A DNA stretch of 43,392 nt from Actinomycetes bacterium (GTDB lineage: Bacteria; Actinomycetota; Acidimicrobiia; Acidimicrobiales; Poriferisodalaceae). Location of the stretch: NCBI GenBank assembly GCA_024228575.1, contig JAAETH010000852.1, positions 1-43,392 on the forward strand. Direction: 5' to 3'. The notes below the pieces were generated by a model. That model did no database searches and had not been told where the DNA came from. It worked only from the letters and a program-made list of their open reading frames with translations. Below are positions 17,278 through 27,275 of the stretch, piece by piece. The number at the start of each line of letters is the position of its first letter. Position 1 is the first letter of the stretch. A program made the position numbers and the translations under genes.

Positions 17278-17816
17278 GAGGACCTCCACTCGGTGTGGTG
17301 ATCGAACGACGCCTCGATGTCGCGCATCCGGGATCGGAAAGCCGAGCCGCCGATATCGTTGGCCCACATCACGACGGCATCTTCACGGTTGTCGGTGTAA
17401 TAGCCCTTGCGAACGCCGGCCCGTTCGAACCCGAAGCGTCCGTACATTCGCTGAGCATCGATATTGGAGACTCGAACCTCGAGAGTTAATGCCTCACAGG
17501 CCGAGTCGAGGGCCCCTCGGACAAGTGCCAACAACGCTCGGCTGCCGACGCCGATCGAGCGGTGATCAGGATCCGTCGCAACCGACGTGACGTGCCCATC
17601 GGACCCGACCACCATCAGTCCCCCGTAGCCGACGACCTTCCCCGCGCTTCGGACGATGCGGTACACCCGGTTGGAGCCATTCGCCAGCTCCTGCAAGTAC
17701 ATGGCCAGCGACCAGGGGCGTGGATAGACCTTGGCATCGATAGCCCTGACGGCCTTCAGATGGCGTTTGGTCATGGGCTCGACCACGATGATCGCCCTAT
17801 CCGCGGCGGGGATCAT
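17274..17816 (-). CDS. rimI: Ribosomal-protein-S18-alanine N-acetyltransferase RimI-like GNAT
   Basis: A GNAT acetyltransferase of 180 residues lying between tsaB and tsaD, the usual position of rimI in actinobacteria. Visible features are EPMTKRHLKAVRAIDAKVYP at the N-terminus, the acetyl-CoA loop DPDHRSIGVGSRAL and VRVSNIDAQRMYGRFGFERA. RimI acetylates the N-terminus of S18, and in some bacteria its role is wider. The ATG at 17816 overlaps the tsaB stop by four bases (ATGA), and the stop overlaps tsaD the same way, so the three genes should be translated together. The substrate is inferred from context. Confidence 0.88.
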   Translation of the reverse strand: MIPAADRAIIVVEPMTKRHLKAVRAIDAKVYPRPWSLAMYLQELANGSNRVYRIVRSAGKVVGYGGLMVVGSDGHVTSVATDPDHRSIGVGSRALLALVRGALDSACEALTLEVRVSNIDAQRMYGRFGFERAGVRKGYYTDNREDAVVMWANDIGGSAFRSRMRDIEASFDHHTEWRSS

Positions 17817-18523
17817 GGGTTTGGTCCCCCTCGGGCGGCACTCTTCCAATTCGGGGTTGCGTCGGGTTCACGAAGGTAGATCGGTTCGATATCGCGAGGT
17901 TGCACGAACTCCTCACGAACGGCCTTGCTGTGCGCCAATTCTGCAAGGGCAGCCGCCGACGGGTACCGCAGGCTCTCGGTCGCCATCTCGACACCGCGCA
18001 ACCTGCAGAACGTGTCGGCGTAGCGTGACATTCCATCGCCGACGAACAGGCAGTCCTCGCCGAACGCCTCGACGACACCACCCACGACATCAGGTGTTGT
18101 GACGGTGGGCTCTGTCAGGCGTTGTACTCCGCCGTGAACCCTTCTGTACGTCGCGACGAAGATCTCGCCGCGGCGAGCATCGACGCCGGCCACGATGTGT
18201 CGCTCGGTCAGCCTTGCCGAGAATGCCAGCAGATCGAGGCTAGAGATACCAACCATGGGAATACGCAGTGCGTGGGCCATCGTCTTGGCCGTCGAGAGGC
18301 CGACGCGCAGGCCCGTGAACAGCCCCGGACCGACGTCTACGGCGACAGCCCCGAGGTCGGCGGGTACGACCCCTGCCTGTCTGCACACGAAGTCGATGGC
18401 CGGAACCAGCGACTCGGCGTGACGGCGATCGCGGCTGGCGTGAAACGATGCGACGGCTCCATCGAAGCTCGCCAGAGCAACTCCTACTTGTGGAGTGGCC
18501 GTCTCGATCGCCAGTATCAACAT
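17813..18523 (-). CDS. tsaB: tRNA threonylcarbamoyladenosine biosynthesis protein TsaB
   Basis: An ASKHA-fold partner of TsaD, without the metal-binding histidines of TsaD. The 236-residue protein starts MLILAIETATPQVGVALASF, and carries HAESLVPAIDFV and VDVGPGLFTGLRVGLSTAKT, both typical. The frame extends a further 58 codons upstream, but that extension is arginine-rich, overlaps tsaE and is not part of the family. The ATG at 18523 overlaps the tsaE 3' end by seven bases. TsaB bridges TsaD and TsaE in the t6A complex. Confidence 0.96.
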   Translation of the reverse strand: MLILAIETATPQVGVALASFDGAVASFHASRDRRHAESLVPAIDFVCRQAGVVPADLGAVAVDVGPGLFTGLRVGLSTAKTMAHALRIPMVGISSLDLLAFSARLTERHIVAGVDARRGEIFVATYRRVHGGVQRLTEPTVTTPDVVGGVVEAFGEDCLFVGDGMSRYADTFCRLRGVEMATESLRYPSAAALAELAHSKAVREEFVQPRDIEPIYLREPDATPNWKSAARGGPNP

Positions 18524-19035
18524 GACCGGACCGCCGCAGCGCTGGACAGATCCTTGATCTGCTCGAGACGATCGGACCACACTTCGCCCACCGATTCGAA
18601 CCGTAGGACGCGGTCGTCGGGTGAGATCGGATCTCCCATGTGGATGCGCACCACGAGGTAGGAGCGCGGAAGCTCTGACGCGACGAGATCGCCCCACTCG
18701 ATGATGGTGACACAGTCGTCGTCGAGCAGTTCAGGAAGAGCAAGGTCAAGAACCTCGCCGGGACCATCGAGGCGATAGACGTCCAGGTGGTGCACATCGA
18801 GGGTCTCTCCTCGATACTCGTGGACCAGGGTGAAGGTAGGGCTCGTGATGCGATCGGCCACCCCGACTGCAGCCCCGAAACCCTGAACAAACGCGGTCTT
18901 GCCAGCGCCCAGGTCGCCTGCGAGCACGATGAGATCGCCGGGACGGGTCACCGAAGCAACGGCGGAGGCAATGGAGCGGGTCTCGTCGACGGAGTCGCTG
19001 GCAATCTCGATCACGTCATCTGATGTTACGACCAT
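18517..19035 (-). CDS. tsaE: tRNA threonylcarbamoyladenosine biosynthesis ATPase TsaE
   Basis: A small P-loop ATPase required for turnover of the TsaB-TsaD complex; 172 residues. The Walker A motif is GDLGAGKT (40-47). TSPTFTLVHEYRG and HHLDVYRL follow, then IIEWGDLV; these are family signatures. It begins 24 bases after alr and overlaps tsaB by seven bases, so it continues the same transcript. Confidence 0.97.
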   Translation of the reverse strand: MVVTSDDVIEIASDSVDETRSIASAVASVTRPGDLIVLAGDLGAGKTAFVQGFGAAVGVADRITSPTFTLVHEYRGETLDVHHLDVYRLDGPGEVLDLALPELLDDDCVTIIEWGDLVASELPRSYLVVRIHMGDPISPDDRVLRFESVGEVWSDRLEQIKDLSSAAAVRSC

Positions 19036-19059: not shown

Positions 19060-20181
19060 TCACCCCACGCCGACTCTTGGAACTCGCGCCGTGATGCGAG
19101 TGAGGATCTCGTAGGGGATTGTGCCGCAGCGGTCGGCCAGGTCCTCGACCGTGATGCTCTGTTGCCCCTGCGAACCCACAAGAACCACCTGGTCGCCGTT
19201 GTAGGCCGTGCCGTCGCCGATATCGATCATCGTCTGATCCATGCACACGCGACCTACCACGGGGTAGCGGGTGCCGCGAATCAGAACCTCGGCGCTATTC
19301 GAAGCAGCCCGCGGATACCCGTCGCCGTACCCGACAGGCAGTGTCACCACACGGGTCTGTCGACTGGGAGCCCAGGTCGACCCATACCCGACAGAGGAAT
19401 CGGCGGCGACCACCTTGAAGTACACGACCGTCGACATCCAGGACAGGACCGGCTCTACCCCGAGGGCGCGAACCGTCTCACGACTCGGATAGAGGCCATA
19501 GGTCAGAACCCCGGGCCTCACCAGGTCGAGATGACTCTCGGGTAGCTGGGCGATAGCGCCCGAGTTGGCGATATGGCGAATCGGCGGCTCTGCCAGATCG
19601 CCCAACAGATCGGTTGCGCCCACAAAACGCTCGAGCTGGCGTCTGGCATCGTCGAGGTCGGCCGAGTCTGCGTTGGCGAAGTGTGAGAACACCCCTTCCA
19701 CCACGAGATCGTCACAGGCGTAGGCCTGCTCAAAGAACGCATGCGCGTTCTGATAGTGCACCCCGATGCGCTCCATGCCGGTGTCGATCTTGAGGTGAAC
19801 AGCTGGCTTCATTCCACGCTGGTGGGCGATGGTCGCCACCTGCACGAGCTTGTCGATCGAAGGCACGGTGAAGGTCAGGTCGTGATCGAGAAACAGACCG
19901 ATCTGACTTTCGACCGCTCCACCGAGAACGTGGACGATCCCGGTGAAACCCAGTCGCCTTGCCTCGATGCCTTCCTCGACATACGCAACGGCGATACGAC
20001 CGACCCCCAACCCTTCGAGATGGGGGACTACCAAGGCAAGTCCGTGACCATAGGCATCGGCCTTCAACACCGGCATGACCTGGCTCGCCGGGCCGACATG
20101 GTTCTCGATTGCGGTGATGTTGCGGGTGAGGGCGCCGAGGTCGACAGTGCAATATGTCGGACGCACCGCTGGATCGGTCAC
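19060..20181 (-). CDS. alr: Alanine racemase
   Basis: A PLP enzyme that makes D-alanine for peptidoglycan. The 373-residue product has the PLP lysine Lys40 in VLKADAYGHG, the barrel motif KIDTGMERIG, and LPVGYGDGYPR and GRVCMDQTM in the C-terminal domain, where the tyrosine base lies. The GTG at 20181 is chosen because it overlaps the nnr stop codon (GTGA) and starts directly before the conserved PTYCTVDLGAL. The long upstream extension of the frame lies within nnr and is rejected. Position between nnr and the tsa genes is common in actinobacteria. Confidence 0.97.
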   Translation of the reverse strand: MTDPAVRPTYCTVDLGALTRNITAIENHVGPASQVMPVLKADAYGHGLALVVPHLEGLGVGRIAVAYVEEGIEARRLGFTGIVHVLGGAVESQIGLFLDHDLTFTVPSIDKLVQVATIAHQRGMKPAVHLKIDTGMERIGVHYQNAHAFFEQAYACDDLVVEGVFSHFANADSADLDDARRQLERFVGATDLLGDLAEPPIRHIANSGAIAQLPESHLDLVRPGVLTYGLYPSRETVRALGVEPVLSWMSTVVYFKVVAADSSVGYGSTWAPSRQTRVVTLPVGYGDGYPRAASNSAEVLIRGTRYPVVGRVCMDQTMIDIGDGTAYNGDQVVLVGSQGQQSITVEDLADRCGTIPYEILTRITARVPRVGVG

Positions 20182-21620
20182 CCCTCGATGATGGCGCGCG
20201 CAGCACCCATCGAGCCAACGATGTCGCCCGCGACCACTCCGAGCCGCCCCGCCACTCGCCCAGCGATGGCATGCCAATGGGCGGTGGCCGCGATCAGCCT
20301 GGCCATGTCGTCGATGTCGGAGCCACGGTGGCACGCGAGCACGGCCCCGATCGCTCCAGCCAAGACGTCACCCGACCCTGCAGTGGCCAACCGCTCGTCA
20401 CCCTCCGTCGACAGCCAGACGTCGCCTTCGGGTGAGGCCACAACGGTTGTCGGGCCCTTCAGAAGAACCGTTGCTTGCGTCGTCGCGGCCAACCGGCGCG
20501 CGGCGTCGACCCTGTCCCGCTCTGGTGCGAAACCGACGAGTTGGGCGTACTCACCATCGTGTGGTGTGATCACGATGGGGGAAACGGCCCCGGCGATAAC
20601 CTCGGGCCGTCCGGCCAGGAAACGCAGCCCATCAGCATCAACAACACACGGAACGGGCGACTCGACTATCAGGGAAGCGACCGCGGCGGCCGTCTGGCCA
20701 CCGGCCCCCAGGCCCGGTCCGACGACCAACGACCCGAAACGATGCAGATCCGAGAGCACCGACGCGACACGATCCTCGGGACGGTCGCCAGCAGTACCGC
20801 GCCCAACAACCTCGACGGGAAGACCGGGGGGCACCTCGGGGACGAGTCCTCCGGCGACGACCATGCCGGCACCTGCCCTAATGGCTGAGCCCGCGGTCAG
20901 GCGAGCGGCACCCCACATTCCGGCGCTCCCGGCGACCACACGAACAGCGGAATTCCACTTGTGGTCGGACCGTTGCCGCCTCGGGAGCACCGTGCGAGCA
21001 ACCTCGTCATCGACCATCCACGTGCGGACCGCCGCCGGTCCGAGATCGAGGCCGATGTCGACGACAACAACGTCACCACAAACAGAGGGGCCGTCGCCGA
21101 GAAACATCCCCACCTTGGGCCCACCAAATGTGACCGTCACGCCCGCTGCATTTGATCCGAGATCTGTTCCGACCGTTGCATCGAGACCACTTGGAACATC
21201 GACGGCGAGGACTCGTTGATCAGCCACCAGCAGGGGTGCCTCGTATCGCCGGGAGAGGCCGGTCCCGAACGCTGCATCGATGACCAGGTCACACTCCCCG
21301 ATCGACGAGACCTCTGGATCGACGACTTCGACCCTCACACCACGCTCGGCCAGGCGGCGCGCCGCCACCAAGCCGTCGGCGCCGTTGTTTCCCGGGCCCG
21401 CCACCACAACAACCCGGCGCCCGTAGGTACCGCCCAAGACCTCGATGGCAACCCGTGCCACCGCACGACCCGCCCTCTCGATCAGGGATGCGATGTCGGG
21501 AGCAGCGTCGTCGACGAGGTGTACCTGCTCTGGCGTGAGCACAGGTGTGGGCCATGGGCCACCCGGGCGCCAGTGGCGCAACGTCACGACGTCACGATGT
21601 CCAGTGTTTGGCGAGGACAT
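20178..21620 (-). CDS. nnr: Bifunctional NAD(P)H-hydrate epimerase / ADP-dependent NAD(P)H-hydrate dehydratase
   Basis: This enzyme repairs hydrated NADH and NADPH. The N-terminal epimerase domain (about residues 28-215) contains VAGPGNNGADGLVAARRLAE and VDVPSGLDA. The C-terminal ribokinase-like dehydratase (about 225-480) contains VVGPGLGAGG, the VITPHDGEYAQLVG segment and TAGSGDVLAGAIGAVLA. The 480-residue total is normal for the fused form. The ATG at 21620 overlaps the glmS-like gene by 29 bases. A GTG at 21587, five bases after that gene's stop, is an alternative start. Its end overlaps alr by four bases. Confidence 0.95.
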   Translation of the reverse strand: MSSPNTGHRDVVTLRHWRPGGPWPTPVLTPEQVHLVDDAAPDIASLIERAGRAVARVAIEVLGGTYGRRVVVVAGPGNNGADGLVAARRLAERGVRVEVVDPEVSSIGECDLVIDAAFGTGLSRRYEAPLLVADQRVLAVDVPSGLDATVGTDLGSNAAGVTVTFGGPKVGMFLGDGPSVCGDVVVVDIGLDLGPAAVRTWMVDDEVARTVLPRRQRSDHKWNSAVRVVAGSAGMWGAARLTAGSAIRAGAGMVVAGGLVPEVPPGLPVEVVGRGTAGDRPEDRVASVLSDLHRFGSLVVGPGLGAGGQTAAAVASLIVESPVPCVVDADGLRFLAGRPEVIAGAVSPIVITPHDGEYAQLVGFAPERDRVDAARRLAATTQATVLLKGPTTVVASPEGDVWLSTEGDERLATAGSGDVLAGAIGAVLACHRGSDIDDMARLIAATAHWHAIAGRVAGRLGVVAGDIVGSMGAARAIIEG

Positions 21621-24600
21621 AGACGGGCTCGCTCAGAAGGTCGATGACCTGCACGTTGGCCAGGAGGTCGTCGCGGAAACTCGGCTCGGTCTCGGTAACG
21701 GCGTCCTTCAGAGCCGCGTAGCGGCCTCGGTAACCCTGCATGACGGTGCGCATGGCATCGGCGCCAAGACGGTCGGGCATAACAACATGCAACAGACACA
21801 GCCCGGTCGGCTGGGTGTCCTTGACCTCGGGAATGATGATAATCATGCGTCCGTCGCTGCGACCCTCGCTGACCGTGACCTCACGTTCGAAAGCCGCACG
21901 GTGTTTGGTACCTCGAAGTGTCGGGATCGCTTCGGTTCGGGTTGGAATGTCGCGGGAGATACCACCCCGATCGATGACCTGCACCAATGCGTCACCCTCG
22001 ACGTCGCCGTCGATGCGGTAGCGGGTGTAGCCACGAACGTCGAGCACGACAGGATCGAGCGCCGCGAGGGTGCGAAGCGAACGGTAGGTCAGACGATCGC
22101 GCGGAGCGCCGGCGGCGAGGACAGCCCTGACGAGTTCCGATTCCAGCAAGGTCTCGTCCGACCGCGAAATCCCGACGGTGACCGTCTTGGCCTGATGTTT
22201 GATCGCGTCGACCGGCCGGGTCAGCTCGTCGATGGCCAAGGACAACGCACGTGTGAGATCGTCGATGACAACTGCGGGGGTGCCGACCTTGCCGAAGTCG
22301 ACCTGGAAACGGTCGAGCGGCACCAACCCCGAGGCATAACGCAGGAGATTGGACAGTCGGACCGCCGTGCTGGCTTCGAGATTGCCGTCGTATCGATTGG
22401 AGCGAAGGCTGTCGAAGAACCGCGACGTGGGAACCGCAAGGTGGGCGACGACCTCGTCGGACTTGCCGGCCTCCCAGCCTTCGTCGACGGCCGCCTCGAT
22501 GATCGAGCGGCATTCACGGAGGGGGTGTGCAAGCGCATCGATGGCCAGCGCTGATTCGTAGCCGAACAGATGACCGGCAACGGTGGCGAGCACGAAGTCG
22601 ACCAATGGATGCACCGTGGGCAAGGCGACGAGGTCGACAGCTGCGCTGAAGCGGCTGGTGTCGCCAGAAGCCAACACGATGGGAGTCGCCTTGTGGGCCC
22701 GGAAGATCGCGATCTCTTTGGCCACATCGTCGGCGGTCGAGCCGACCAGCCCCGCGGCGCAGACCAGGATCATCGGCTCTGACGACAGGTCGATGTGTTT
22801 CTTGTCTTCGGTACTGTCGCAGGCGATGGCCTTGTAGCAGAGCTCGCTGAGCTTGATACGAAGTTCGCGCGCAGCGGTTGCGTTGGCTCCGTTGCCAACA
22901 ACAGCCCAGTAGCGTTTTGCCGGCGAGTGCCGTCGAGCAATCTCGCCGATGTGAGGCTGATCGGCGATCACTTTGGCCATGGCGTCGGGCAGTGCCCTGA
23001 TGGCGGTGAGAAGTTCGGAGATATCGGCCGCGGGTGCCGCATCACCGAGGGCGCTACGGGCGATGGCACACGCCAGCAATGCGCCCGCGGCGATCTGGGC
23101 GTAGAACGCCTTGGTCGAGGCAACGGACATCTCGACATCTCTACCGTCGCTCGTGTAGAGCACACCGTCGCACCGATCGGTGAGATCGCTGCCCCTGCGA
23201 TTGACGATCGCTATGACGGACGCGCCGCGACCCCTGACCAGGTCGACAGTGCGGTTGGTATCGGTGGTGGTTCCCGACTGACTGACCGCCACGATGAGGG
23301 TGTCGCTCATGTCTGCGCGCAGACCAAAACCCGACAACTCGGTCGCCAGTATCGACTCGACCTTGATGCGTCCGTCGACGAGCGGAGCGAGGAAGGCGCC
23401 GAGACTTTCGCCTGCTACTGCGGCGGTGCCCTGGCCGATCGATACGATGCGATTGATCTGACCAGACGTGAGTTTGGCCGCTACCGCGGCAGGAAAAGAG
23501 GTCTCGTCGAGACTCTCCGACAACACTGCGTCGCACTCCGAGATGCGGCCGCGAAGTGTCTTGCGGAACGACTCGGGGGCCTCTCCCACTTCCTTCAGGA
23601 AGAAATGGGGAGCGTCGCCGAGGTCGATGTCGCGCGTTGTTATCTCGGGGTTGATCAGCTCGGATGGGGCGATACACAGCTCGGTTCCGTCGTAGGAATG
23701 CCGGGTCATTCCCGCAATGTCGCCCGCTGCGGTTGAGTCGAGTCGCAGGATCTGACCGCGCGAACCAACTGGATTGTTGAGGTCGGAAGGTGTTTCGCCA
23801 TCGAGGCGCAGGTACCGATCGGACTCCTCGACGACACCATACGGTTCGGACGCCACGATGAAGGAATGGTCGGCAAGGCCGACGTAGAGAGCCTGCCCCG
23901 AACCTCTCAGAGCGAGATACAAGGTGTTCGGGTCTGTGGCCATGTGAGTGCCGATCGCCACCGAACCCTCGAAGCTGGCAACCGAGGAACGAAACGCCTC
24001 GATCGGCGAGTCGCCGTCTTCGAGACCTCTTGCGACGAGGGTCGGTATGACCTTGGCGTCGGTGGTGATTTCGGGTGCAATTTCGAGTCGATGATGCGCC
24101 TTGAGGTCGGCGAAGTTGTCTACGTCTCCGTTCAGCACCGATGTGACCAGTGGACCCTCCAGGTTGCCCAGCTCGCACGAATCGAGTGGATGTGCGTTGG
24201 CCTCGGAGATGATTCCGATCGAGGCCCAACGGGTGTGTCCCAGAACCGTCGTGTGAGCGTCCGGATTCGACAGGGCTCTGGCGAGGAGTTCGTCGGCAGC
24301 GATGGCGGCTCGCAGGGACGCAGTGTTGTCGCCCAGCTCGCCGATCTCGGCGGCGGCCTTGTAGACGAAGATGGCGAGCGAATCGTCGACACGAACCGCT
24401 CCCGACCGGAACATGCTGTCGCTGGCTCTGGCGCCCAGGTCGCCGCGAGCGTCGACCTCGATAGGAACGATGCCGTGGTTCTGGACAACGATCTCAACAC
24501 CGGCCGAGTCTCGGCCCCTGACCTCGAGACGGTCGAGTGCGGACAGCGCTACCTGAACAGCCCAATATCCGGCCACTTCGGCCGTCGAGGGCATGATGGG

Positions 24601-25017
24601 GGCCAGCGCGGCGATGGCGCCGGCGTTTCGAACGCGGTCTCGAAGGATGGCCCAGGCGGCATCCTTCAGCAGTACTAGAGCCTGGTTGACCTCCTCGGTG
24701 GAAACGCCGAAGTCGATCCGGCCGGCATCGACCAACTCGTCGAGCGCTGCGACCGTGTCGCCGAAACACTCGGCTTGGGCAGCGAGTTCGGCCAACAGTT
24801 CAGCGTCTCCGACCAGTGCTCTCACACCTGGGAGCGACCGCAGGTCTCGGTCGAAGTCGGCGGCGAGTTCGGCAACCTCGACCAAGAGCTGAACACTCGG
24901 GGACTCGCTGGCCTGACCCAATCGATCGAGCACCTCGTCCATTCGGCGCCGAACCACGTCTGGAGGAAGGGGTTCGCGGTCGTCTGGACTACGGACAACA
25001 CCGATGATTCCGCACAT
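21592..25017 (-). CDS. glmS: Giant GlmS-like glutamine:fructose-6-phosphate aminotransferase with insertion and C-terminal extension
   Basis: At 1141 residues this is nearly twice the roughly 610 of normal GlmS, which makes glucosamine-6-phosphate. The start MCGIIGVV, with nucleophile Cys2, fixes the ATG at 25017. In normal GlmS the LxRLEYRGYDSAG motif comes about 25 residues later. Here LDRLEVRGRDSAG is at 161-173, after a mostly helical insertion of about 140 residues. HTRWA (261-265) and NGDVDN (296-301) complete the glutaminase. Two SIS domains follow: SQSGTTTDT at 579-587, ASTKAF at 633-638, and a second domain at about 700-830 with Glu725 and His741 where the catalytic pair is expected. 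RPVDAIKHQAKTVTV (934-948) resembles the normal C-tail with its Schiff-base lysine (Lys944), but is separated from SIS2 by about 100 residues and followed by about 190 extra. glmM is directly upstream, which supports an amino-sugar role. Confidence 0.85.
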   Translation of the reverse strand: MCGIIGVVRSPDDREPLPPDVVRRRMDEVLDRLGQASESPSVQLLVEVAELAADFDRDLRSLPGVRALVGDAELLAELAAQAECFGDTVAALDELVDAGRIDFGVSTEEVNQALVLLKDAAWAILRDRVRNAGAIAALAPIMPSTAEVAGYWAVQVALSALDRLEVRGRDSAGVEIVVQNHGIVPIEVDARGDLGARASDSMFRSGAVRVDDSLAIFVYKAAAEIGELGDNTASLRAAIAADELLARALSNPDAHTTVLGHTRWASIGIISEANAHPLDSCELGNLEGPLVTSVLNGDVDNFADLKAHHRLEIAPEITTDAKVIPTLVARGLEDGDSPIEAFRSSVASFEGSVAIGTHMATDPNTLYLALRGSGQALYVGLADHSFIVASEPYGVVEESDRYLRLDGETPSDLNNPVGSRGQILRLDSTAAGDIAGMTRHSYDGTELCIAPSELINPEITTRDIDLGDAPHFFLKEVGEAPESFRKTLRGRISECDAVLSESLDETSFPAAVAAKLTSGQINRIVSIGQGTAAVAGESLGAFLAPLVDGRIKVESILATELSGFGLRADMSDTLIVAVSQSGTTTDTNRTVDLVRGRGASVIAIVNRRGSDLTDRCDGVLYTSDGRDVEMSVASTKAFYAQIAAGALLACAIARSALGDAAPAADISELLTAIRALPDAMAKVIADQPHIGEIARRHSPAKRYWAVVGNGANATAARELRIKLSELCYKAIACDSTEDKKHIDLSSEPMILVCAAGLVGSTADDVAKEIAIFRAHKATPIVLASGDTSRFSAAVDLVALPTVHPLVDFVLATVAGHLFGYESALAIDALAHPLRECRSIIEAAVDEGWEAGKSDEVVAHLAVPTSRFFDSLRSNRYDGNLEASTAVRLSNLLRYASGLVPLDRFQVDFGKVGTPAVVIDDLTRALSLAIDELTRPVDAIKHQAKTVTVGISRSDETLLESELVRAVLAAGAPRDRLTYRSLRTLAALDPVVLDVRGYTRYRIDGDVEGDALVQVIDRGGISRDIPTRTEAIPTLRGTKHRAAFEREVTVSEGRSDGRMIIIIPEVKDTQPTGLCLLHVVMPDRLGADAMRTVMQGYRGRYAALKDAVTETEPSFRDDLLANVQVIDLLSEPVYVLAKHWTS

Positions 25018-25064: not shown

Positions 25065-26402
25065 TCAGACAGTGTCGGCCATGCCATATCGAGCACACAC
25101 TGCCTCTTCGAGCCGGTCGGCGATCGCGCGTGCCAATTCAGCACTTGTCGACTCGACCATTACCCGCACCAGGGGCTCGGTTCCCGAACTACGAACGAGA
25201 ACACGACCACCAGATCCCAATTCGCGCGATGCAGCTTCGATTTCGCCTTCAAGATCGGCGGCAGGATCTTCTGGGCGGACGCGTGTAGCGACGTTCACCA
25301 GGAGTTGGGGCACCGTCTCCATGACCTCTGACGCCATCCGCCCAAGATCGCCATTGGACCGGGCGACAAGATCGGACAACAGCAGGCCGGCCAAGATGCC
25401 ATCTCCGGTTGTGGCGTGAGAGGTGAAGACCAGATGACCCGACTGTTCGCCGCCGAGCGACCAGTTGCCGGCGGCGAGAGCCTCGAGCACATATCGATCG
25501 CCGACGGGAGTGACCTCGACATTGATGCCACGTTCTTGCATCGCCCGATGCAAGCCGAGATTCGACATGACCGTGACAACAAGGGTGCGGTCACAGAGTT
25601 GCTGTCGGCGATCCAGATCTATCGCAAACAAGCACAACAACCGATCGCCGTCGACCGTGTTGCCAGAGGCATCGACTGCGATGAGCCGGTCGGCGTCGCC
25701 ATCGAATGCCAAGCCGAGGCTTGCCCCTGACTCGACGACACGCCGCGCCAGCGCCCGCGGATCGGTCGAGCCGACACCGTCGTTGATGTTTTGCCCGTCG
25801 GGTTCGGCGTGCATGACCTCGACCGAAGCGCCTGCCAGACGGAACGCGTCGCCGGCGACAGGAGATGCGGCACCGTGGCCACAGTCGAGCACGATTCTCA
25901 GGCCATCGAGCGTGCGTCCGTCGAGTGTGTCGACAAGCATGGTCACGTACTCGACGCGGGCATCGAGATCTCGGTGAACCCAACCGACGTTGTGAGGGTC
26001 TCCGCTCGGATCGACCGAGGCCAAGCCGTCGAGAGTTGCCTCGATGGCTGCCTGGGTTGCGTCGTCGAGCTTGTGCCCGCCACGACCGAAGATCTTGAGG
26101 CCGTTGTCGTGCCAGGGGTTGTGCGACGCCGACACTATGACGGCACCCGCGTCGTGAATCGACGCCAGGTAGGCGACACCAGGGGTCGGCATGACACCCA
26201 CGTCAAAGACGTCTGCACCTTCGGCTGCAAGCCCAGCTGCGACAGCGCCGTCGAGCATCGGACCCGATCGGCGCGGATCGCGTCCGATGTACCACTTGGG
26301 GAGTCCCATGACCCGCGCTGCGGCGCGGCCCAACCTGAGGGCCAATTCGGGTGTGAGCTCGGCGTTTGCCGGACCGCGTAGGCCGTCGGTACCGAACCTC
26401 AC
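25065..26402 (-). CDS. glmM: Phosphoglucosamine mutase
   Basis: Converts glucosamine-6-phosphate to glucosamine-1-phosphate on the way to UDP-GlcNAc. The 445-residue length is normal. It begins MRFGTDGLRGPANAELTPEL, has the phosphoserine loop SASHNPWHDNG with Ser93, the metal loop FDGDADRLI and the sugar-phosphate loop RSSGTEPLVRV. It starts only ten bases after rpsI and precedes the glmS-like gene by 47 bases, so two consecutive steps are encoded together and tied to ribosomal protein expression. Confidence 0.98.
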   Translation of the reverse strand: MRFGTDGLRGPANAELTPELALRLGRAAARVMGLPKWYIGRDPRRSGPMLDGAVAAGLAAEGADVFDVGVMPTPGVAYLASIHDAGAVIVSASHNPWHDNGLKIFGRGGHKLDDATQAAIEATLDGLASVDPSGDPHNVGWVHRDLDARVEYVTMLVDTLDGRTLDGLRIVLDCGHGAASPVAGDAFRLAGASVEVMHAEPDGQNINDGVGSTDPRALARRVVESGASLGLAFDGDADRLIAVDASGNTVDGDRLLCLFAIDLDRRQQLCDRTLVVTVMSNLGLHRAMQERGINVEVTPVGDRYVLEALAAGNWSLGGEQSGHLVFTSHATTGDGILAGLLLSDLVARSNGDLGRMASEVMETVPQLLVNVATRVRPEDPAADLEGEIEAASRELGSGGRVLVRSSGTEPLVRVMVESTSAELARAIADRLEEAVCARYGMADTV

Positions 26403-26412
26403 CGGCGCAAAC

Positions 26413-26805
26413 TCAGCGCTTCGAGTACTGAGGAGCCTTGCGCGCCTTCTTGAGACCGTACTTCTTGCTTTCCTTCTTGCGGGCGTCGCGAGTGAGCAAG
26501 CCGGCAGCCTTCAGGGTGGGACGGCTCTCGGGGTCGAGGGCGACGAGAGCACGTGCGATACCCATGCGCAGCGCGCCGGCCTGACCGCTGACTCCGCCTC
26601 CATCCATCGTGACGTCGACGTCGTAGGCCTCGCCGGTCTCGGTGACTTCGAGGGGAAGCGAGACGATCATGCGGTGGGTCGCTGAAGGAAAGTAGTCCTC
26701 GAACGGCCGCTTGTTGATGGTTATCTGACCCGATCCAGGGCGCAGGCGAACACGAGCGACGGCCCGCTTGCGACGACCGGTGGTTTGTACGAGAGGTGCA
26801 CTCAT
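26413..26805 (-). CDS. rpsI: 30S ribosomal protein S9
   Basis: A 130-residue S9. It shows [17 protein letters not shown] near the start, [19 protein letters not shown] in the middle and the invariant ending [12 protein letters not shown] that reaches the P-site tRNA. The ATG at 26805 is chosen because it fits the family N-terminus; a much longer in-frame extension lies within rplM. It follows rplM by 17 bases as usual. Confidence 0.98.
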
Positions 26806-26822
26806 TTGGGACTCCGATGGGC

Positions 26823-27275
26823 TCAGCGGGAGCTGGCGCGGGCGTGATCGATGGCGAGTGGGGCGGGCTGCTGGGCCGAATGTGGATGGTCGGGGCCGGC
26901 GTAGACCTTCAGCTTGGTGAGCATCTGTGCTCCGAGACGATTCCTCGGCAGCATGCCCTTGACGGTGCGGCGGATGGCCTCGTCGGGGCGCCGGTCGAGC
27001 AGGTTGCCGTAGGTTTCCGAGCGCAGACCACCGGGGTATCCGCTGTGACGGTGAATCATCTTGGTGTTGCGCTTGTCGGCCGTGAGCACAACCTTGTCGG
27101 CGTTCACGATGATGACGTGGTCGCCGGTGTCGAGGTGTGGGGTGTAGATGGGCTTGTGTTTGCCGCGGAGCACCCGGGCGACCTCGGTGGACATGCGGCC
27201 GAGCACGAGATCGGCCGCATCGACCACAAACCAATTGCGCTCGATCTCGGAAGCGCTGACGGAATAGGTACGCAC
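26823..27275 (-). CDS. rplM: 50S ribosomal protein L13
   Basis: A 150-residue L13. The GTG at 27275 starts [20 protein letters not shown], where the family begins, and a GAGG sequence lies eight bases upstream. [20 protein letters not shown] and [13 protein letters not shown] are family signatures. The C-terminus runs about ten residues past a typical L13. It is the first gene of the series that continues through glmM, alr and tsaD, with its own promoter upstream. Confidence 0.98.

Follow-up and report, generated by a model that had tools for sequence, protein, structure and literature searches.

Amino-sugar synthesis starts with GlmS, which has been studied intensively as a model of both ammonia channelling and feedback control. 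In the window (the whole stretch of DNA analysed here, 43,392 nucleotides), the gene directly downstream of glmM encodes a GlmS-like protein of 1141 residues, whereas a canonical GlmS has ~610. The question is whether such an enlarged protein is the working GlmS of the cell and, if so, what its added parts do. The gene order is rpsI-glmM-glmS-nnr-alr-tsaE-tsaB, and neither a glmS ribozyme nor any other Rfam RNA was found in the window.

17813-18697, minus strand: tsaB (TIGR03725)
18517-19035, minus strand: tsaE (TIGR00150)
19060-20334, minus strand: alr, alanine racemase (TIGR00492)
20178-21620, minus strand: nnr, NAD(P)H-hydrate repair, overlapping the end of glmS (TIGR00196, over the cut-off)
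21592-25017, minus strand: long GlmS gene, 1141 residues plus stop (59-sequence alignment)
25065-26402, minus strand: glmM, phosphoglucosamine mutase, directly upstream of glmS (TIGR01455, 493.7 bits, over the cut-off)
26413-26790, minus strand: rpsI, ribosomal protein S9, the 3' part of an ORF at 26413-27234 (NF001099)

The 1141-residue GlmS-like frame described in the initial annotation was recovered with the same coordinates and motifs. Its start is the ATG at 25017 and the protein opens MCGIIGVV. The mechanical ORF has an alternative start, GTG at 25098; the MCGI start is preferred because it yields the Ntn nucleophile and because M1-C2-G3 is invariant among 59 aligned sequences (the window protein and 58 relatives at 55-69% identity). 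Three additions, at residues ~10-144, 829-933 and 957-1141, are constant in the long GlmS clade, with added regions of ~147, ~108 and ~198 residues throughout. The entire clade keeps this layout, which is therefore neither a product of chance nor a frameshift artefact; frameshift, fusion and assembly artefacts are ruled out because more than 100 independent genomes carry it unbroken.

The catalytic parts lie between and around these additions.

25012-25014, minus strand: Cys2, N-terminal nucleophile of the glutaminase (invariant in 112 of 112 sequences reaching it)
23698-24585, minus strand: remainder of the glutaminase domain, residues 145-440, including H261-R263-W264, N296-G297 and D320 (Pfam GATase_6, E 3e-8; invariance; structure match to E. 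coli GlmS)
22534-23622, minus strand: two SIS subdomains, residues 466-828, with S579-Q580-S581, S634, K722, E725 and H741 (Pfam SIS, E 6.5e-17; VIA Z 37 to the isomerase domains of GFAT-1 and GlmS; invariance)

Pfam assigns one SIS and one GATase_6 domain to the protein, and the landmarks HTRWA (261-265), SQSGTTTDT (579-587), ASTKAF (633-638), E725, H741 and K944, which the initial annotation had already listed, are all present and invariant. Positions without variation in the 59-sequence alignment comprise M1, C2, G3, R167-G168, H261-T262-R263-W264, N296-G297, D320, S579-Q580-S581-G582, S634-T635-K636, E725, H741 and K944. In a larger set of 119 rows, in which rows without a given position are contig-end sequences or have an undetermined base, C2, R167, H261, R263, W264, N296, G297, D320, S579, Q580, S581, T584, E718, K722, E725, H741 and K944 are unchanged in 112-118 long sequences, and the sole change at the tested catalytic positions is one Thr-to-Ser at T531. 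The AlphaFold model (pLDDT 87, pTM 0.78) was matched by Foldseek to E. coli GlmS and human GFAT-1 over the core from end to end (E 1e-22 to 2.6e-24); VIA structure comparison gave Z 37-38 over ~570-590 residues to the same two enzymes, and the glutaminase domain matches 1xff. The R-loop, HTRWA, SIS1 and SIS2 are in register in a profile alignment with classical GlmS, and the equivalence of the tails is given by the match between KHQAKTVTV and NLAKSVTV. The catalytic residues of human GFAT-1, namely Lys558, Glu561, His577, Lys676, Cys2, Asn123 and Gly124 (PMC7000685), correspond to K722, E725, H741, K944, C2, N296 and G297, respectively. The assignment of K944 as the Schiff-base lysine, made in the initial annotation, gains support from its alignment with the AK[ST]VTV tail, in which it never varies.

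The long form nevertheless scores below the curated cut-offs of the family models: 217 bits against 418 for TIGR01135 and 234 bits against 381 for NF001484, with other members of the clade at 190-237 bits to TIGR01135 where the match is full length. It departs from the canonical GlmS equivalog in this score, in its R-loop signature and in the position of its tail. The sequence features of GlmS/GFAT (EC 2.6.1.16) are all present, i.e. the Ntn Cys nucleophile, the glutamine-pocket and oxyanion residues (R263, W264, N296, G297 and D320), two SIS subdomains with the phosphate-binding SQSGxTxDT motif and catalytic Lys, Glu and His, and a C-tail with its lysine. From sequence and model together, we strongly infer that the long protein is catalytically a GlmS. 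By homology, Cys2 would hydrolyse glutamine, and the ammonia would travel along a channel that Trp264 and the C-tail close off; fructose-6-phosphate, its ring opened by His741, would form a Schiff base with Lys944, be isomerised by Glu725 and be aminated.

The genome to which the window belongs is 96.9% complete and carries one copy of the long GlmS. No classical GlmS over the cut-off was found in it, the remaining matches being either short or limited to the amidotransferase end of the model, and it encodes no second SIS-domain protein; a second, normal glmS in this genome is thereby rejected. In a sample of 118 genomes from the order, the long form occurs in 71 (called by the profile of its C-terminal domain), the classical form in 43 (TIGR01135 over the cut-off) and both together in none, an exclusion with a chance of 6e-28 if the two were independent and shared ancestry is ignored. 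The remaining four of the 118 are in neither list, and one of them (G327) has a fragment of the classical form where a contig ends. Smaller genome samples agree with the exclusion; the lone genome with both forms, G101, has a contamination estimate of 5%. The conjecture of the initial annotation that this is the working GlmS of the cell is thus strongly supported by the sole copy, the exclusion across the 118 genomes and the common operon slot, and its check for a normal-length GlmS elsewhere came back empty in a 97%-complete genome.

A few genomes merit separate mention. The two loci of G101 are G101:C313 and G101:C155. Neither the long C-terminal domain nor a classical GlmS rises over threshold in G265, G312 and G284, of which the first two share one family (f87) and have small genomes, 98% and 95% complete. 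At G047:C1:1179749-1183184 the long gene lies in two overlapping frames that split at about residue 745, just past the active-site His, as a result of either a sequencing error or a real break. In genus g4 (G004, G012, G018, G022, G026 and others) the gene is longer still, with a match of ~1217 codons, open frames of up to 1386 and residues that the window protein lacks.

Long and classical glmS both sit between glmM and nnr. On the GlmM tree the GlmS type switches at least six times. Within family f64, one genome with the long form (G247) and one with the classical form (G151) have close GlmM sequences and a different GlmS at one locus, and within family f37 two genomes (G066 and G095) differ in GlmS type from a third (G081), again at one locus. 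The long gene is apart from glmM in family f67 (G162, G183 and G225) and in G101. All long forms make up one clade, which a very long branch divides from the classical forms. Because the slot is common, the switches on the GlmM tree are repeated and the long clade is single, the pattern is that of one gene displacing another of equivalent function. In most of this actinobacterial class the long form stands in place of canonical GlmS, and it occurs patchily elsewhere in the phylum; the profile sampling covered genomes around the lineage of the window, inside the phylum. Long forms were not found on plasmids, where the matches were classical GlmS and relatives below 60% identity.

The additions and the two catalytic elements that they affect are as follows.

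24586-24990, minus strand: insertion 1, residues ~10-144, helical bundle between β1 and α1 of the Ntn glutaminase fold (AlphaFold model, pLDDT mostly 80-96)
24499-24528, minus strand: R-loop LEVRGRDSAG, residues 164-173 (109 of 109 long against 25 of 25 classical sequences with the motif found)
22219-22533, minus strand: insertion 2, residues 829-933, helical segment that separates SIS2 from the catalytic C-tail (AlphaFold model)
22165-22218, minus strand: catalytic C-tail RPVDAIKHQAKTVTVGIS, residues 934-951, with K944 (K944 invariant; internal, not the C-terminus)
21595-22149, minus strand: C-terminal extension, residues 957-1141, GAF/PAS-like α/β domain (model m076e6ec6c64f, pLDDT 92.5)

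Insertion 1 accounts for the displacement from Cys2 of LDRLEVRGRDSAG, which starts at residue 161 compared with about residue 20 in E. coli GlmS, as had been noticed from the sequence. Its modelled helices span residues 19-38, 42-59, 62-70, 72-97 and 107-138, and its length is similar throughout the clade (~147 residues across the region). No other part of the protein is as poorly conserved: the mean identity is 44% (alignment A3), and the majority residue is at ~0.4 for residues 26-50 and 76-100. Pfam and PDB profile searches gave no relative. The bundle probably follows β1 at the end away from Cys2 and is more likely a contact surface than a part of the active site; it might serve for docking or oligomerisation, and scaffolding, as the initial annotation proposed, is a possible role for it.

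The R-loop reads LE[V/I]RGRDSAG in the long form and LEYRGYDSAG in the classical form, and both classical R-loop tyrosines are replaced in the former, by Val/Ile166 and Arg169. In human GFAT-1 the C-loop is held by two tyrosines of the R-loop and the tryptophan of the Q-loop (PMC7000685). Classical tails end AK[ST]VTVE-stop; in the long form the tail reads KHQAKTVTVG[IV]S and ~198 residues follow beyond the lysine. Together, the R-loop and tail signatures split the two clades without exception among the sequences in which the motifs were found. The tail of canonical GlmS is a free C-terminus. In the long form it is an internal linker, because insertion 2 precedes it and the domain of residues 957-1141 comes after. 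The gap of ~100 residues between SIS2 and the tail seen in the initial annotation can now be described as the third insertion, residues 829-933, predicted to be helical, which has 103-142 residues in other complete members of the clade. The low-confidence segments of the model (residues 266-270, 731-744 and 945-956) are the Q-loop, the active-site His loop and the tail, and the second half of the C-tail falls within the last of these (pLDDT <50); this is as expected for mobile elements modelled without ligand or partner subunit. The tail would thus tether the helical segment 829-933 to the GAF/PAS-like domain 957-1141, and its closure could be controlled from both ends.

The C-terminal extension has no Pfam family, and searches for known families among the additions (Pfam on every member, PDB profile searches) returned scattered chance matches only. 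For the segments 10-155 and 950-1141, singled out in the initial annotation, Pfam and PDB profiles likewise gave no family; the predicted structure is a helical bundle for the first and a GAF/PAS-like fold for the second. The domain matches GAF and PAS domains with Z 7-9 over ~70-98 residues, values that are common for small α/β domains, and the matches include the GAF domains of the nitrogen-PTS enzyme PtsP. In structural terms only, the predicted domain appears to fold like GAF/PAS sensors. It is conserved about as well as the catalytic core (68% column identity, 0.62-0.75 per 25 residues), and R973, D974, R999, Y1000, D1016, R1027, K1038, R1057 and E1109 are invariant polar residues; no ligand-binding motif was identified in it. 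In the sampled order the domain occurs in long GlmS only, besides weak profile matches (E 1e-4 to 1e-2) to a ~770-residue protein that reads as methylmalonyl-CoA mutase; these were treated as chance because they cover mostly one short stretch.

Judged against other systems, canonical GlmS (E. coli, PDB 1jxa/2j6h; TIGR01135) has in common with the long form the Ntn glutaminase, two SIS subdomains, the catalytic residues, the AK[ST]VTV tail and the slot adjoining glmM, and differs at 26-30% identity in lacking the three additions, in the R-loop and in the position of the tail. Human GFAT-1 and fungal Gfa1 have the same fold (Z 38), the same catalytic residues and an addition to the core. That addition is a loop with phosphorylation sites in the glutaminase-to-isomerase region, UDP-GlcNAc binding to the isomerase domain (PMC7000685, PMC7948480), whereas the additions of long GlmS come after β1, before the tail and after the tail. 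The SIS-family deaminases and isomerases NagB-II, AgaS and FraB have the tandem SIS fold (Z 24-31) and, unlike long GlmS, no glutaminase domain.

Could the protein instead be a paralogous amidotransferase acting on another sugar phosphate, with glucosamine-6-phosphate coming from some other source? Its low identity to GlmS, the ~8.5 changes per column in total on the separating branch and the score under the family cut-off would fit such a paralogue. However, it is the sole SIS protein of the genome, classical GlmS is excluded wherever the long form occurs in the 118 genomes, all GlmS catalytic residues are kept, the gene adjoins glmM, whose enzyme uses glucosamine-6-phosphate, and a GlmU-like gene is present (346.8 bits, slightly below the cut-off, as in five of 14 control genomes); we regard this explanation as very improbable. 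A different proposal accepts a working GlmS and takes the added parts as purely structural, setting oligomeric state or stability without sensing a ligand. Long additions often have that function, the N-terminal bundle is poorly conserved, no ligand motif was found and there is no sequence kinship with a sensor family. Against it stand the core-like conservation of the C-terminal domain, its many invariant polar residues and the fact that a domain with a fold of sensor type is joined straight to the catalytic tail; a purely structural role is a real possibility, if short of probable.

The origin of the domain is a related matter. Its widest fold match is residues 172-358 of 7jsr_A (Z 9.0, 162 of 197 residues, r.m.s.d. 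4.2). The large 180-kDa glutamate dehydrogenase (PDB 7jsr) has an N-terminal PAS region (PMC8175468), and we infer that residues 172-358 are a PAS module of it. The two domains might then derive from one module, a nitrogen-status sensor common to two unrelated enzymes: the alignment is longer than the ~70-98 residues of the GAF/PAS matches, the 1630-column dehydrogenase alignment gives its best profile match at 264-301, within the same region, and the window genome encodes a large glutamate dehydrogenase too. Sequence homology between the two was rejected as not significant (hhalign E 0.11-0.14, with 11 of 60 shuffles scoring as high), the r.m.s.d. is large and GAF domains of unrelated proteins reach equal Z, which makes a shared module doubtful. 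This dehydrogenase resembles long GlmS in being a central enzyme of nitrogen metabolism that is unusually large and has extra domains. The two have unrelated catalytic parts, and the domain is N-terminal in the dehydrogenase and C-terminal in long GlmS. The copy in the window genome (L163, contig C123) is of the 180-kDa class, which is patchy in relatives (6 of 41).

The reading that we prefer is that the window protein is the only glucosamine-6-phosphate synthase of the organism, a member of a divergent long class with GlmS chemistry and a tail probably gated by a sensor domain; taken as a whole, this is very likely. The suggestion in the initial annotation that the additions are regulatory is favoured at the level of fold only, by the GAF/PAS-like C-terminal extension, and nothing found favours the UDP-GlcNAc or second messenger that it had named. 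Judging from the anatomy of the protein, closure of the tail is probably under the control of the sensor domain, which might sense a metabolite or a partner and move the tail between open and closed positions, thereby gating both glutaminase and synthase activity. A nitrogen or carbon metabolite is a reasonable first guess at the ligand, and no more, made because many of the matches are GAF domains, those of PtsP included. In its fullest form, the C-tail would be a tether from a helical lever to a GAF/PAS-like sensor, through which the signal from a metabolite would exert mechanical control over active site and ammonia channel, in a self-regulated GlmS spread by whole gene displacements; we offer this version tentatively, as an idea that may well prove wrong in part.

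The catalytic kind is already known. In the literature searched, most subscription journals lying outside it, we could not find an earlier description of the architecture, of the tethered tail or of displacement across the class. Most species of one actinobacterial group appear to run the entry to cell-wall sugars on a GlmS of nearly double size in place of the ordinary form, and the divergence of the long form would explain why the usual GlmS annotation models miss the enzyme in these genomes. A mobile tail tied at both ends offers a natural experiment on the coupling of two active sites by tail closure, and it suggests that a bacterial GlmS may have built-in allostery.
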